Origin: a virus
DNA length: 22,021 nt
Virus record (IMG/VR): IMGVR_UViG_3300034012_002401
Span: 1 to 22,021 of that record
Direction: 5' to 3' (one strand)
Part shown: one piece after another, positions 1,875 through 22,021 of the stretch
Layout: each line of letters begins with the position of its first letter
Position numbering within the stretch: the first letter of the stretch is position 1
Notes under the pieces: model-generated
Told to the model about the DNA's origin: nothing
Seen by the model: the letters and a program-made list of their open reading frames with translations, nothing else
The model's database searches: none
Program-made: the position numbers and the translations under genes

Positions 1875-3328
1875 GGATCCGCATTTATAGAATTAAATAA
1901 AACTTCCTCATCCCAGCCAGTCACTAAATCTAGCTCCCTGCTCTGAGATAGTCCCTCAATGTCCCTTGCTTGTAAGTGGGCCCTCTGGGCCTCTACTCGC
2001 TCAACAAATTTGTAATTAACGTGTCTAAGTATGTACCTAAAGTCATCCAGCAAATGATCTCCATCTTCAGGTAAATCACCCTTTTCGTCAGTTACATAAT
2101 TCTCTACTTCCTTAATAAAATTAATACACCTATCAGAAACATAGAGAGCATCCTCTGCTGCCATGAGGCTTTTAATGAGAGCTATATCATCATCAATAAA
2201 TCTTGTGGTTTTTGCACTTCCTACAAGACTGGCTTTAAAGTTGGTTTGAATTAGCTCTTTCCACCACGCTTCAGCAGAGTCATACCCATTAATCCACCTG
2301 CCATCAAAAAGCTCTTTTTGCTTAGCTTGAATTCGATGCCACATTCTTAGTGGCTCTGTGCTTTTCCTATCTGTCTCGTATATCTCATCAAGAATAAAAA
2401 TTTGAGCTGTATATGGATTATACGCTGCAAACAGAACTGCAAAGCAGGTAGCAGCTCCGGGGTCAGCAAAGGCTATCCACTTCATCTTCTTTTTATCTTT
2501 CTCAAGAGTAGCTGTTAGTACATTGTGTGGCCGCACATGCGTTTCTCTTGACCAGAATGGGAATACTACGCCCTCACCACCAAAGCAGTCTTCTCCGTAA
2601 TATTCGCGTCTTGCAATTGCAGAGTTACCAGAGCGAACTAGCGCATCAATAGTCTTTTGTAGCTCTTCCTTATCGATAGTTGGATTAATGCTGGTAGGAA
2701 ATTGAAGATAGAGCCTAGTCTTATCTCCACCAGCAATTTCTTGTAAAAGCTGTTTTTTAAACTGCATGTAGTAGCAGTCTCTTTTAGGAGGAGTGCCAGT
2801 AATAATAAGAGAGGAGTTTTTAGCCAAAAGATTTGGACGCATTATCTCCAAGTCAAACTCTTGGGAATGACGCTGAAACTCATCGTAGAAAACTAAGTGA
2901 GGCTTAATACCAGCGTGAGCTGCTGTATTTTCGCAGCCATCTACGCAGATAAAGGAACCGTTTTTAAAAACTAAACGAATCTCAGAGTCTTTGGCCTGAT
3001 CGATAAATTCAGGAGGAGGATAATTCTGTAGTCTTCTACTAGCCCAGTAAATTTCTTTTCCTTGCTTACGCTCTGGGCAAATAATGTAAATCTGGGAATT
3101 AGGCTCTAGAATGGCCTTAACAGTCGCAATGTAAAGAACAGACTCGCTTTTCCCAGCATTCCTGCCCCATTGGGACTGAATTATTCTTTTCTTGTCATTA
3201 AAGTAGGCTTTGGCTAGCTGAATTTGCCCTGCGTGTAATGGTCTTTTGTGTACGTTATTAATGCGATCATAAATCGCTGCCATGATATTCCGATGATTTG
3301 ATAATGCCTTTGCTGCATTACTGCTCAT
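1853..3328 (-). CDS. terL: Terminase large subunit (ATPase and nuclease)
   Basis: This is the packaging motor: an N-terminal ATPase drives DNA into the prohead and a C-terminal RNase H-like nuclease cuts the concatemer. With the ATG at 3328 it is 491 residues, a normal size. A Walker A-like loop GRNAGKS lies at residues 55-61 and a Walker B LVFYDE at about 145-150, with the catalytic acid at its end. A serine/threonine motif ITGTPP follows. Nuclease acids are plausible in AFADPGA (about residue 286), GYDSAEAWW and the late DHLLDDFRYI. A longer TTG start at 3349 is possible, but the ATG has AGAGG six bases upstream and overlaps the stop of the upstream gene, so I prefer it. The gene sits directly after the probable small terminase and two genes before the portal, the standard packaging cluster. 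Confidence 0.93.
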   Translation of the reverse strand: MSSNAAKALSNHRNIMAAIYDRINNVHKRPLHAGQIQLAKAYFNDKKRIIQSQWGRNAGKSESVLYIATVKAILEPNSQIYIICPERKQGKEIYWASRRLQNYPPPEFIDQAKDSEIRLVFKNGSFICVDGCENTAAHAGIKPHLVFYDEFQRHSQEFDLEIMRPNLLAKNSSLIITGTPPKRDCYYMQFKKQLLQEIAGGDKTRLYLQFPTSINPTIDKEELQKTIDALVRSGNSAIARREYYGEDCFGGEGVVFPFWSRETHVRPHNVLTATLEKDKKKMKWIAFADPGAATCFAVLFAAYNPYTAQIFILDEIYETDRKSTEPLRMWHRIQAKQKELFDGRWINGYDSAEAWWKELIQTNFKASLVGSAKTTRFIDDDIALIKSLMAAEDALYVSDRCINFIKEVENYVTDEKGDLPEDGDHLLDDFRYILRHVNYKFVERVEAQRAHLQARDIEGLSQSRELDLVTGWDEEVLFNSINADPWDITFQ

Positions 3329-14050: not shown

Positions 14051-14647
14051 ATGAGCAAAGAATACTCTAAATCAATTAAGCTTTCTGGTACTGTTCTTGG
14101 TACTGGAAAAGAATCAGTAGCCAAATCTGGCAAGCGTTACACAAAAATCCCTTTTAGAGACGTAAAAACAAGTGATATTTACGCGCTGATGTTTGCTGAA
14201 GAACTGTTACCTATGGCATTGGCTTTGAAGCTTGAACAAAAAGTGAGTCTCTCAGGCAGAAAAGTTGGTGGTAAGGATGAAAATATTGTGTGGGTAGATT
14301 TTATTTACACTGACGAAAAGCGCACTAGCAGATTTAAGACTAGTGAAGAGTCAGCAAAGTATCAGGCTGAAATGCGCGAGTACTACGCCAAAAATAATAT
14401 GGTGCTGTGTAAAACAAGTGACGATGGAAGAGTTTTTAAAGACTGGTTCCATAAAGATTCATGCATAGATCTCGGCAATGGCGAATGGGTCAGAAAGATA
14501 GATTACGTCATGGACTTACTTGGCCCCAAAGAAGTTGAAACCAGATTACGCAAAAAGTTATCTGAGTATGGGGGTGCTGTTCCGAAAGGGAAGGGCCATA
14601 TTTTCACAAGAATGATCGACGACATGATTGAAGAGGCTAAGTTCTAG
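14051..14647 (+). CDS. Hypothetical protein with OB-like N-terminus
   Basis: The 198-residue product starts MSKEYSKSIKLSGTVLGTGKE, followed by strand-like segments (KRYTKIPFRDV, KVSLSGRKVGG, IVWVDFIYTD) to about residue 85. This is the pattern of a small OB-type nucleic-acid-binding domain. The remainder is charged and helical with KDWFHKDSCIDLGNGEWVRK, without a recognised motif. The ATG follows AAAAAGGACTAGACCC, the strongest example of the recurring early ribosome site. Its place between the SSB-like and Gp157 genes suggests DNA metabolism (recombination or annealing), which is inference only. Confidence 0.6.
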   Translation: MSKEYSKSIKLSGTVLGTGKESVAKSGKRYTKIPFRDVKTSDIYALMFAEELLPMALALKLEQKVSLSGRKVGGKDENIVWVDFIYTDEKRTSRFKTSEESAKYQAEMREYYAKNNMVLCKTSDDGRVFKDWFHKDSCIDLGNGEWVRKIDYVMDLLGPKEVETRLRKKLSEYGGAVPKGKGHIFTRMIDDMIEEAKF

Positions 14648-14648
14648 T

Positions 14649-15167
14649 ATGAGTGAATCACTATACGAAATTTCTAAGGATATTTACGAGCTTGAAGCGC
14701 TCTTACTTGAAATGACAGTCTTTGAAAGAGCTGACGGACTCGATCAAAAGGCTATTGAAGACACGCTAGAAAGAAGGAAGTGGGATAAGAAGCAAAAAAT
14801 AGAATCGATGCTCAAGCTGTATCACTCTCTTAATGCTAGAGCTAAAAGCGCAGACCTTGAGGTTAAGAGATTACAAGCTTTAAGAGATGAAAGAACGGAT
14901 GCCGCTGAAAGTGTAAAAACGTATCTTGCTAAATATTGCCAAGGGGAGAACTGGGGTTTTGGTTGTGGATCTATTTCCTTTAGAGCTAGCGAAGGAGTTA
15001 TGGAAGTTCCTAATCCAGATGGAAGTTACCCAGAGATTCCAGAGGAGTTTAAACGCGTTAAAGTTGAAGTATCAGCAGATAAAAAAGCTATAAAAGAAGC
15101 ACTAAAAGCTGGTGCTACTATCCCCGGTTTTTATTTGGAAAAAAGAAATAATATTCAGCTAAAGTAA
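14649..15167 (+). CDS. Gp157-family protein (siphovirus Gp157-like)
   Basis: The 172-residue product matches the overall plan of the phage Gp157 family. It has an N-terminal LYEISKDIYELEALLLEM stretch, an IEDTLERRKWDKKQKIESM segment, a long coiled coil ending KRLQALRDERTDAAESVKTYL, then a C-terminal beta part (GCGSISFRASEGVMEVPNP). It ends with KADKKAIKEALKAG-type wording (here SADKKAIKEALKAGATIPGF). The family has been linked to phage resistance in Streptococcus thermophilus and lies near recombination genes in many phages; its mechanism is unknown. An upstream TTG at 14628 overlaps the previous gene; ATG 14649 one base after that gene's stop is preferred. Confidence 0.85.
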   Translation: MSESLYEISKDIYELEALLLEMTVFERADGLDQKAIEDTLERRKWDKKQKIESMLKLYHSLNARAKSADLEVKRLQALRDERTDAAESVKTYLAKYCQGENWGFGCGSISFRASEGVMEVPNPDGSYPEIPEEFKRVKVEVSADKKAIKEALKAGATIPGFYLEKRNNIQLK

Positions 15168-15460: not shown

Positions 15461-15617
15461 CAATGAGTTCTATGCTGAACCTTTCTTTTCTATCCACAAG
15501 CTATTTTGGTTTATCGTTTACCTAACCTGCTTGTGGGGAAGCGTCGATATCTTAAATACCGCTTGGACAATTTGGGAAGGCGAGCCCTTTGTGCAAGTAG
15601 CGAGCAACAAGCGCTAA
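15450..15617 (+). CDS. Single-TM small protein (55 aa)
   Basis: A 55-residue frame runs from ATG 15450 to TAA 15617 and begins MTNNNEFYAEPFFSIHKLFW. A membrane segment covers about residues 17-36 (KLFWFIVYLTCLWGSVDIL), with an exported or cytoplasmic polar tail EGEPFVQVASNKR. GGAGG lies ten bases upstream, inside the end of the lipoprotein gene. With that gene it makes an inner-membrane plus lipoprotein pair, an arrangement also found in spanins and exclusion systems. The function is unknown. Confidence 0.6.
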   Translation: MTNNNEFYAEPFFSIHKLFWFIVYLTCLWGSVDILNTAWTIWEGEPFVQVASNKR

Positions 15618-15618
15618 C

Positions 15619-15652
15619 AAGGAGAGCCCCCGAAAGGGGGCTATTTAACCGA
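15619..15652 (+). promoter_or_regulatory. Stable GNRA hairpin between a ribosome site and the metzincin start
   Basis: AAGGAG (15619-15624) is followed by AGCCCCC (15625-15631), loop GAAA and GGGGGCT (15636-15642), a 7-bp stem with a GNRA loop, then ATTTAACCGA before ATG 15653. No other ribosome site lies near the ATG. Folding the hairpin would shorten the effective SD-to-ATG distance from 28 to about 10 bases. Alternatively, the stem plus ATTT is a weak intrinsic terminator or attenuator for the upstream genes. Confidence 0.5.
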
Positions 15653-16282
15653 ATGAAAACCCAAATCGCTTTTATTTTTGCTCTTACAGCCGCTCTAGCG
15701 CACTGCGCTACCGCACAAGCTGAGAGGCCGGTGCTGAATGTTTATTATGTGCAATCGCCTCGGGCCACGTCGTTAGCGCATGTGTCCGACACTAACAAGC
15801 TAATCAAAGCCGTGATGAAGCAGGATTTTAAACGCAAAATTAAAATTAGAGTTAGGGGAATCGCTGAGACAAAAAGCTTTGTTTACAATTCAAGCCTGAA
15901 TGAGTTTTGGCACTATGCGAACCACTACAAGGTCAGACTTACTACAGGCCGAAAAAAGTGGGCTCTAGTGCTTACCCCTCCGCAGTTAGATGCGAGTGGT
16001 AAAATGTGGTTTATCGGGCGAGGGCATACGCAATGTTGGAAGAAGAACAACGGCTTAACTATGGGAATGGCGAGCCTTGCTCTTAGTAACGATAAAGGCC
16101 AAAGCCGTTACTTACAGACCATATTAGGAACGCTGCACGAGCTTGGACATACCTTAAGTCTTAACCACAGCACCGACACGGGCAGCATTATGCACTCGGG
16201 CGTACTTTATTACGCGCTTAACGGGCTGGGATTTTCTGAGAGTGAGAAGTTTAAGGCTAAGCATTGTTTGAGGGTGAAATGA
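15653..16282 (+). CDS. Exported metzincin-type zinc metalloprotease
   Basis: The 209-residue protein begins with a Sec signal (MKTQIAFIFALTAALAHCAT, cleavage likely after AQA at residue 23). HELGHTLSLNH at residues 162-172 is the HExxHxxxxxH metzincin zinc site, with His162, His166 and His172 as ligands and Glu163 as catalytic base. The usual Gly of HExxHxxGxxH is Ser169. SIMHSG at 178-183 gives the Met-turn methionine (Met180). This is the active-site plan of matrixin/reprolysin-type enzymes. A longer frame upstream has no signal logic, so the ATG at 15653 is chosen. It should act in the periplasm or outside the cell, an unusual product for an early phage operon. It may degrade an envelope or external protein. 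Confidence 0.75.
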   Translation: MKTQIAFIFALTAALAHCATAQAERPVLNVYYVQSPRATSLAHVSDTNKLIKAVMKQDFKRKIKIRVRGIAETKSFVYNSSLNEFWHYANHYKVRLTTGRKKWALVLTPPQLDASGKMWFIGRGHTQCWKKNNGLTMGMASLALSNDKGQSRYLQTILGTLHELGHTLSLNHSTDTGSIMHSGVLYYALNGLGFSESEKFKAKHCLRVK

Positions 16283-20266: not shown

Positions 20267-20491
20267 ATGAGCACACCAAAGCTGAGAGAAGGAATAACCG
20301 AACTGCTTGTTAACAGAGCGGTTAAATGCGCAGAGAATGACGATAAAATGAGTGGGATGTTTGTTGCTGGCGCACGTTGGGCATTAGATAACCTGCACAA
20401 ACTGCTAGAGCCGAACAGTACAACTTTTCAAATTTACTGCGATGCTGGGCAGCCATCAAAACCCGTTGCAATCGTGGAGCTGGAAGAATGA
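20267..20491 (+). CDS. Hypothetical protein (74 aa)
   Basis: A 74-residue protein, MSTPKLREGITELLVNRAVK at its start, with a helical GMFVAGARWALDNLHKLLEP and a beta-like TTFQIYCDAGQPSKPVAIVE end. It is not recognised. Its stop lies 14 bases before the hammerhead ribozyme, so its mRNA 3' end would be set by that cleavage. Confidence 0.6.
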   Translation: MSTPKLREGITELLVNRAVKCAENDDKMSGMFVAGARWALDNLHKLLEPNSTTFQIYCDAGQPSKPVAIVELEE

Positions 20492-20504
20492 CTAACGACA
20501 TCGA

Positions 20505-20552
20505 CCACGGCTGACGAGGGCTATTTGCCCGAAACGCGCAAGCGTACCGTGG
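20505..20552 (+). ncRNA. Type I hammerhead ribozyme
   Basis: All hammerhead parts are present in order. Stem I left strand CCACGG (20505-20510) is followed by core CUGACGA (20511-20517). Stem II is GGGC/GCCC with loop UAUUU (20518-20530). The core GAAA follows (20531-20534), its last A pairing with U20545. Stem III is ACGC/GCGU with GNRA loop GCAA. H17 is A20546, and stem I closes with CCGUGG (20547-20552), a perfect 6 bp. Both ends lie in stem I, making it type I. Cleavage is expected after A20546 (GUA triplet). It lies between two co-directional genes, so it should cut the early mRNA and leave a 5'-OH on the downstream part. An outer GACT (20490-20493) / AGTC (20562-20565) pair could extend stem I around an internal loop. 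Confidence 0.92.
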
Positions 20553-20617
20553 AGTTCTCCCAGTCGGGGAATAACTGAGGACCAGCGAGGGGTTTGCGAG
20601 AAGCGGTTAAGGCCGTT

Positions 20618-20674
20618 TGTCGCCGTGGGTTGGCAATGCCCCTTGTCCTGCCAACATCTGGCCCGACATTTTTT
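20618..20674 (+). terminator. Bipartite hairpin followed by T6, terminator-like
   Basis: TGTCG (20618-20622) pairs with CGACA (20664-20668), enclosing GTTGGCA (20629-20635) paired with TGCCAAC (20649-20655). TTTTTT (20669-20674) follows immediately. The long interrupted stem makes termination less certain, but the T6 and stem order fit an intrinsic terminator. It lies 66 bases after the ribozyme and 25 before the next ATG, so it could separate the two transcription units. CCGTGG at 20623 duplicates the right strand of ribozyme stem I. Confidence 0.5.
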
Positions 20675-20698: not shown

Positions 20699-21118
20699 AT
20701 GAAACCAAAGAAGCATAGGCTAGATTCGTTTGTAAAACGCAGAGCTAAAGAACTTGGCTGGTATGCGCCACATCCTGCCCATGCACTATTATCAGACTGG
20801 CTCGGATCACTCTCGCTTAGCGAGATCTTGACTCTAACCGATAGAGGCAAGCCCGACTATGCCTATTCATCTAGTAAGGAGAATGGGGCTCGTACTTTTA
20901 AGATAAGAGAGACTTGGGATGACTCAAAAATGCAGATGCTTAAAAGTAGTTTGGTAGCAGAGAATCCCATACTTGCCAAATTGAAACATAAAAAAACGTA
21001 CTCAGTGGGATCTGTAATTGTTAAACCGATTAAATGGAGTAATGGCAATGCAAAAAAGAAAAGCAAAAAAGCCTCGCAATCCAAGCGATGCGACTATGCG
21101 GAATGTCCGAGCACTTAA
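20699..21118 (+). CDS. Hypothetical protein (139 aa) with basic tail
   Basis: The 139-residue product (MKPKKHRLDSFVKRRAKEL...) has basic ends, a middle with SDWLGSLSLSEILTLTDRG and a lysine-rich C-terminus (KKKSKKASQSKR). It is not recognised; nucleic-acid contact is possible from charge. ATG 20699 has GGAG ten bases before it; the open frame extends to 20594 through the terminator-like structure but has no better site. Its last 71 bases overlap the following gene in another frame. Confidence 0.55.
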   Translation: MKPKKHRLDSFVKRRAKELGWYAPHPAHALLSDWLGSLSLSEILTLTDRGKPDYAYSSSKENGARTFKIRETWDDSKMQMLKSSLVAENPILAKLKHKKTYSVGSVIVKPIKWSNGNAKKKSKKASQSKRCDYAECPST

Positions 21119-21504: not shown

Positions 21505-21749
21505 CACCAAAATGTTGTAATAACTACATGCTCTGGATGTCGTATAATCCAGAAATTATTATTCATGAGGACCATTGGAAATGCCCCGCCTGTGGTCATG
21601 AGATTTACGAAACTCAATTAGAAATGGCATTCCATGCGGAAAATTTACGAGACAGAAGAGGATCTACAAAGAGAGGCAGCAGTAATAAAACAAATAGAGC
21701 ATTCAAGAAAAGTACGGTTCTTGAAGCTCCCGATGACATGGAAAGTTGA
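21486..21749 (+). CDS. Zinc-ribbon-like small protein (TTG start likely)
   Basis: The 87-residue frame starts at TTG 21486 and encodes MGRKGVTPKCCNNYMLWMSY. A CC pair at residue 10 and CPACGHEI at about 33 look like a four-cysteine ribbon, which supports the TTG start over the ATG at 21528, which would lose the first pair. A basic, serine-rich tail follows. It overlaps the previous gene by 19 bases and the next by 116, an unusually long overlap. Function unknown. Confidence 0.5.
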   Translation: MGRKGVTPKCCNNYMLWMSYNPEIIIHEDHWKCPACGHEIYETQLEMAFHAENLRDRRGSTKRGSSNKTNRAFKKSTVLEAPDDMES

Positions 21750-22021
21750 TGGGCTTATTCTGCACAAGGATAAGCCTTTTGCATGGGCAGAAATTAAAAC
21801 GAGAGCATTTAATTGGGGGGAATTCCCCGATGTAATTCTGTCATTAAAGAAGCTTAAAGCTGGGTTGCTGTTACAAAAGCACTTACAAGGAGAATCTGGG
21901 AAACTAGATCTCCTTTTTTTTGTATCCTCTAACTCTGGTATTTACTACACAAAACTACGGCAAGAATCTGAGTATGAGGTAAAGATAGGAGGAAGATATA
22001 AAGATAAGCGTGATGAGTATG
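21634..22021 (+). CDS. PD-(D/E)XK nuclease-like protein (partial, right edge)
   Basis: The frame opens at ATG 21634 and stays open to the window end (129 codons). It encodes MRKIYETEEDLQREAAVIKQ, then KLPMTWKVDGLILHKDKPFA and WAEIKTRAFNW. The order VDG ... x(10) ... ExK is that of PD-(D/E)XK nucleases: Asp in VDG and Glu-x-Lys in AEIKTR as metal ligands and base. Some phage and Holliday-junction-type nucleases share this shape. Only one ATG lies in frame after an upstream stop, so the start is well fixed, though the ribosome site is weak. The end of the protein is outside the window. Confidence 0.65.
   Translation, partial: MRKIYETEEDLQREAAVIKQIEHSRKVRFLKLPMTWKVDGLILHKDKPFAWAEIKTRAFNWGEFPDVILSLKKLKAGLLLQKHLQGESGKLDLLFFVSSNSGIYYTKLRQESEYEVKIGGRYKDKRDEY

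Follow-up and report, generated by a model that had tools for sequence, protein, structure and literature searches.

Positions 20505-20670 of the phage sequence analysed here probably encode a two-module RNA, in which a type I hammerhead ribozyme matures a discrete pseudoknotted RNA. In our computational analysis the hammerhead was found at a fixed position relative to a covarying core, in a family of elements that occurs in two circular orders, is distributed among phages and is adjacent to tRNA genes more often than expected.

The window, i.e. the whole stretch of DNA analysed, is a 22,021-base IMG/VR virus fragment whose minus strand carries the terminase and portal genes and whose plus strand carries the early genes. 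The element is flanked by two co-directional genes, the first ending at 20491 and the second starting with an ATG at 20699:

20267..20491, plus strand: 74-aa gene directly upstream of the element, no Pfam or PHROG match
20699..21118, plus strand: 139-aa gene directly downstream of the element, no usable Pfam or PHROG match

At the stop codon of the 74-aa gene an overlapping ATG (ATGA) starts a frame of 8 codons, MTNDIDHG (20488-20514), which ends at a UGA within the hammerhead core, so that ribosomes could disturb the fold; the frame is known from this genome alone. The window also encodes a Gp157/Gam-like end-protection protein (14628-15167), a predicted matrixin-like metallopeptidase in the phage early region (15506-16282; Pfam PF00413, just above the cutoff) and a phage PDDEXK endonuclease (21634-22020; Pfam PF24579), truncated by the end of the record. 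No tRNA gene is present beside the window's own element. Searches of IMG/VR with the 139-aa gene or the PDDEXK gene yielded no relatives. A TerL search yielded fragments of the same virus that end before the element and more distant relatives that lack a canonical type I hammerhead; none of these TerL relatives is a close relative of the window's own phage that covers the element.

A complete type I hammerhead ribozyme

An earlier note on this DNA had described a complete type I hammerhead at 20505-20552, and every part of it was found as placed, both in the sequence and by RNAfold. The features are as follows:

20505..20552, plus strand: type I hammerhead ribozyme (sequence, RNAfold, full-length RF00163 alignment, covarying stems in homologues)
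20505-20510 with 20547-20552, plus strand: stem I, CCACGG with CCGUGG (RNAfold; two covarying pairs in homologues)
20511..20517, plus strand: catalytic core CUGACGA (sequence, RF00163 alignment)
20518..20530, plus strand: stem II, GGGC-UAUUU-GCCC (RNAfold; three covarying pairs in homologues)
20531-20533, plus strand: GAA of the hammerhead core (sequence)
20534..20545, plus strand: stem III, ACGC-GCAA-GCGU (sequence, RNAfold, homologue alignment)

Stems I, II and III are 6, 4 and 4 bp long. A17 of the ribozyme is position 20546, and the cut is predicted between A20546 and C20547. RNAfold gave exactly the expected hammerhead fold at -20.8 kcal/mol (z -2.8), with 3 of 200 shuffled sequences scoring as well.

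The covariance-model check that had been suggested gave a divided answer. When the 48 nt were searched alone, RF00163 (Hammerhead_1) aligned from end to end with every core base present (16.8 bits, E 0.041), whereas an Rfam scan at the scale of the window, permissive thresholds included, gave no hammerhead match. The score is under the RF00163 gathering cutoff of 34 bits, which is a curated database threshold and not a functional criterion for the ribozyme class. The features of that class, i.e. the CUGANGA...GAAA core, three stems, an open-ended stem I and NUH before the cut, are all present. The earlier judgement that chance assembly is very unlikely could be put into numbers: with all-Watson-Crick stems and short loops the expectation is 1.6e-8 per window, or about 0.07 per 1e11 bases, and under a looser rule that allows G-U pairs and long loops a single match was found in 634 Mb of random sequence. 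Both strands of the window were scanned and contained no second type I hammerhead. We regard 20505-20552 as almost certainly a genuine hammerhead.

A family of elements in phage genomes

A tight hammerhead pattern had no match. The looser pattern that opened the family consisted of the core, a stem II closed by G-C and the ACGC stem III. Good stems I and II were also present in 81 of 85 matches (the first listed IMG/VR loci plus the window), compared to 32 of 119 matches to the same pattern in bacterial genomes, indicating that matches in phages are mostly genuine and those in bacteria mostly due to chance. About a dozen of the listed hammerhead loci share sequence 3' of the ribozyme with the window. 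A search pattern from this 3' part, GGAGTNNYCCNNNNNGGGGAATNANTG, which covers no part of the catalytic core, was present in at least 119 IMG/VR stretches, at least 100 of them unique, and in none of 794 bacterial genomes from two phyla. A plasmid search for the element gave no match. A profile built from twelve relatives, with the window left out, matched window positions 20506-20670 at E=1.2e-27, and the part 3' of the hammerhead alone (20554-20670) at E=2e-15.

The element is found in Arthrobacter phages Constance and Karkharias, Microcystis phage Mwe-JY26, Mycobacterium phage Gaia, Enterobacter phage SDFMU_EhYP, Dickeya phage Setonix and Pectobacterium phages Pappous and Taid, where it is unannotated or overlaid by small hypothetical ORFs. 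Prophages of M. abscessus also carry it, as do 15 of 5426 complete E. coli genomes. One E. coli element has the antiterminator Q gene on one side and the holin gene on the other; another, within the portal-terminase cluster of a prophage, is antisense to the genes on its left. In phage EhYP the element lies between capsid and tail genes.

A co-oriented tRNA gene was present within 150 nt at 25 of 98 loci (8.8 expected). The gaps are often 1-30 nt and many elements are flush between tRNA genes; all 255 tRNAs in the element loci are co-oriented with the element and none is antisense. Most loci show no such adjacency to a tRNA gene. An analysis of gene strands by simple ORF calling was too noisy and was set aside.

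Two loci, L391 (Mycobacterium phage Gaia, about 1450-1505) and L291 (about 3090-3154), have UUGANAA instead of CUGANGA as the hammerhead core. This variant changes C3 to U3 and G8 to A8, a natural double change with which the 3-8 pairing needed in the active fold would be preserved.

The core RNA

The window sequence 20505-20670 forms one folded RNA of about 165 bases, of which the hammerhead is only the front module. The remainder, here called the core, contains the following parts:

20554..20582, plus strand: helix A, GTTCTC 20554-20559 with GAGGAC 20577-20582 (575/576 pairs, 96 elements)
20585..20593 with 20638-20646, plus strand: helix B, GCGAGGGGT with GCCCCTTGT (9 bp in the window)
20601..20618, plus strand: helix D/P0, loop-capped, AAGCGG/CCGTTT (helix analysis across elements)
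20624..20655, plus strand: CGUGG, followed by hairpin C, GTTGGC 20629-20634 with GCCAAC 20650-20655 (569/576 pairs)
20656..20667, plus strand: conserved AUCUGG, followed by the helix E strand CCCGAC 20662-20667, which pairs with GTCGGG 20563-20568 (573/576 pairs)
20669..20674, plus strand: T6 run directly 3' of helix E (sequence; not universal in relatives)

The loop of helix A contains the first strand of helix E, GTCGGG, followed by the conserved GAATAACT (20569-20576), and the second strand of helix B lies in the loop of hairpin C, forming an H-type pseudoknot. Hairpin C takes a strand of B into its loop and helix A does the same for E, which makes the core two interlocked H-type pseudoknots. 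Its two halves are alike, each running CGUGG - helix - CA - partner - linker - helix - partner. Most window-type members have a stronger helix D than the window.

Across 96 elements, 98.8-99.8% of the pairs in helices A, C and E are formed, compared to 454, 392 and 485 of 576, respectively, when partners were shuffled between elements; in these counts some bases of A and E are fixed by the search pattern and C was placed partly through its pairing. The pattern put no constraint on helix B or on those positions of A and E that vary, and B has a mean length of 7.9 bp in the family versus 4.6 bp after shuffling (96 elements). Among 13 window-type sequences the covariation score exceeded that of all 500 shuffles and collapsed when the columns were slid by 1-3 positions. 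We are highly confident that 20505-20670 belongs to a conserved structured RNA.

The stem downstream of the hammerhead had been read as terminator-like. A terminator scan found no terminator in this place: a GC hairpin with a direct T run is lacking and the bases of the stem belong to helices A and E, so the reading as an intrinsic terminator was rejected. What stands of the earlier description is a hammerhead in a phage between co-directional genes, and what falls is a stand-alone motif beside a terminator. It is speculated that the T6 run could mark the 3' end of the RNA.

Loop II of the hammerhead, UAUUU (20522-20526), is complementary to the conserved GAAUA at 20569-20573 of the core, and this pairing is a possible docking contact in place of the usual loop I contact. 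Several window-type elements (L369, L381, L324) have a hairpin with CGGAAAGACG 3' of helix E. In an enterobacterial lineage the complete window-type element, hammerhead included, lies within an extra helix, AGAGCACUG/CAGUGCUCU (L393, about 1960-2170; flanks of the elements in L313, L347 and L074). Pairing of the hammerhead-flanking sequences was rejected as a general window-type feature, although one lineage has it.

Two circular orders with the hammerhead at one junction

The core occurs in two circular orders. The window and 16 other elements have the window-type order hammerhead - A - B - helix D - C - E, and 79 elements have the order C - E - junction - A - B. In this permuted order the outer flanks pair as a closing helix, the counterpart of helix D; its longest helix has a mean length of 9.3 bp in elements with a hammerhead (6.0 bp shuffled) and 7.4 bp in elements without one (6.1 bp shuffled). 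The alternative that the element occurs in tandem copies was rejected, because the piece upstream supplies the RNA's other half.

Where present, the hammerhead sits at the E-A junction in both orders. Using a parser that left out G at the cleavage position, it was present in 17/17 window-type and 58/79 permuted elements (Fisher p=0.02), and the 3' strand of stem I started 4 nt before GGAGU in 74/74. Approximately one fifth of the elements have no hammerhead and have kept the core, which means that the task of the core does not need the hammerhead. In these elements the junction is a linker of 6-9 nt, a plain hairpin or a decayed hammerhead. The junctions of L304, L300 and L388 carry hammerhead-like remnants with a broken CUGANGA or GAAA, next to intact core helices.

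Proposed maturation and alternative explanations

We propose that the hammerhead would cleave itself after A20546 and thereby create the 5'-OH end (5'-CCGUGGAGU...) of a compact RNA of about 120 nt starting at 20547. The cleaved RNA would consist of the two interlocked pseudoknots (A with E, B with C) around the loop-capped helix D, and would be a discrete small RNA that in many cases shares transcription and processing with phage tRNAs. The task of the hammerhead would be to open the same core junction whichever way the gene is permuted: in the order of the window the cut would free the core from the upstream transcript, and in the permuted order it would nick a domain still held by three helices. 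We infer that cleavage takes place in vivo, that it yields a free RNA product and that this product has a role in trans. A discrete matured RNA is favoured over a separator of mRNAs because of the shared outcome in both orders, the tRNA neighbours and the phage-biased distribution; on balance, we lean slightly towards the RNA acting as a discrete RNA rather than in cis. That its task is related to tRNA or translation is a guess.

The main alternative, which we consider rather unlikely, is that the element is a cis-acting operon joint, a ribozyme counterpart of RNase III processing sites, in which cutting of a polycistronic transcript by the hammerhead would leave the downstream mRNA with a 5' end shielded by the pseudoknot core. 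The location of the window element between co-directional genes and that of the EhYP element among structural genes fit such a joint, and published hammerheads flank prophage genes and cleave polycistronic RNA (PMC3088659). However, the cut in the permuted order is made inside a domain closed by the outer helix, so it would nick the RNA and not separate two genes, the outer helix still linking both sides. The core is also kept in members without a hammerhead, elements lie flush between tRNAs and one is antisense to the genes on its left. Simple mRNA cutting, the function suggested in the earlier note, is weakened for these same reasons.

Selfish or neutral insertion of the hammerhead into the junction loop, with repeated gain and loss and no benefit to the core, is improbable. 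The linkers, plain hairpins and decayed hammerheads that occupy the same junction elsewhere, the linker in its 6-nt form, would agree with this, but the fixed register, the presence of the hammerhead in every window-type element, and the covarying stems and retained core bases across very different phages argue against it.

Equally, we give a low probability to a motif that is structurally intact and catalytically silent in the window's phage. Type I hammerheads use a contact between loop I and loop II for fast cleavage. By inspection, stem I of the window has no bulge, internal loop or obvious extension that bears a contact loop, which together with the Rfam score under the cutoff would suit a silent motif. 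Against this, the core bases are all canonical, A at H17 fits the NUH rule, approximately 40% of hammerheads are predicted to use pseudoknots for the loop contact (PMC3088659), and the pseudoknot core itself could dock stem II. The window hammerhead is predicted, with good confidence, to be catalytically active. Chance assembly of the hammerhead elements is a negligible explanation, for which nothing speaks except the lack of close relatives for the region, and against which stand the calculated expectation, the covarying homologues and the independently conserved 3' part.

Returning to the proposed maturation of a discrete RNA, a broader interpretation is put forward tentatively. The elements may represent a hitherto undescribed phage-borne RNA class with two pseudo-symmetric, pseudoknot-locked halves in two orders, in which the junction hammerhead acts as maturation scissors; being at a fixed junction, the scissors would yield the same opened molecule from both orders. 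Travelling with the tRNA genes that phages carry as cargo, such a class might spread among phages whose hosts belong to several phyla, and act in trans on translation or host defence.

The function of phage hammerheads has been an open question since their discovery, and many of them now appear as fixed parts of one conserved RNA. With this, a vague question becomes two that can be tested, namely whether the RNA is matured by cleavage and what it does. The copies in culturable phages (Constance, Gaia, Pappous, EhYP) and in the E. coli genomes make direct laboratory tests possible. RNA gene permutation is rarely found together with a visible mechanism, and the two natural orders, with their ribozyme at the junction, would be one such case.

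Comparison with known systems

Rfam 15 contained no match for the core of the window; nine relatives matched tRNAs only, and the hammerhead-less core of L283 matched only a miRNA at E 9.8. No description of the core RNA was found in the literature covered, which excluded bioRxiv and most subscription journals; the core RNA is for that reason called undescribed only provisionally, and the hammerhead adds one more member to a class already known. Identity with theta ribozymes was rejected, given the lack of a match to an Rfam model and, by inspection, a different order of helices. Identity with VIPR vrRNAs was rejected too, as inspection against their definition (PMC13142463) revealed no tandem YNNGG repeats in the element.

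The closest known relatives are the type I hammerheads of phages and prophages (Perreault et al. 2011, PMC3088659; RF00163), which have the same core, stem order, cleavage site and intergenic location in phages. The published accounts found take the hammerhead as the unit, and the attached double-pseudoknot RNA, the permutation and the 4-nt register of the present family are described in none of them. The HDV-like theta ribozymes are likewise self-cleaving RNAs beside phage tRNA genes, with an HDV-like fold and a proposed function in tRNA 3' processing (PMC10879173), while the present element combines a hammerhead with a different pseudoknot core. VIPR guide RNAs are also phage RNAs of about 100 nt, some arrays of which contain hammerheads and one clade of which has a tail pseudoknot; vrRNAs consist of 9-16 YNNGG repeats beside the vipr gene (PMC13142463), in contrast to the strongly conserved stems of the core. 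Finally, two-piece tmRNA and permuted hammerheads (PMC10085705) share a circularly permuted gene order with a processed junction. The present element differs in that opening of the junction would fall to a hammerhead within the RNA itself, and in that phages as a group contain both orders.
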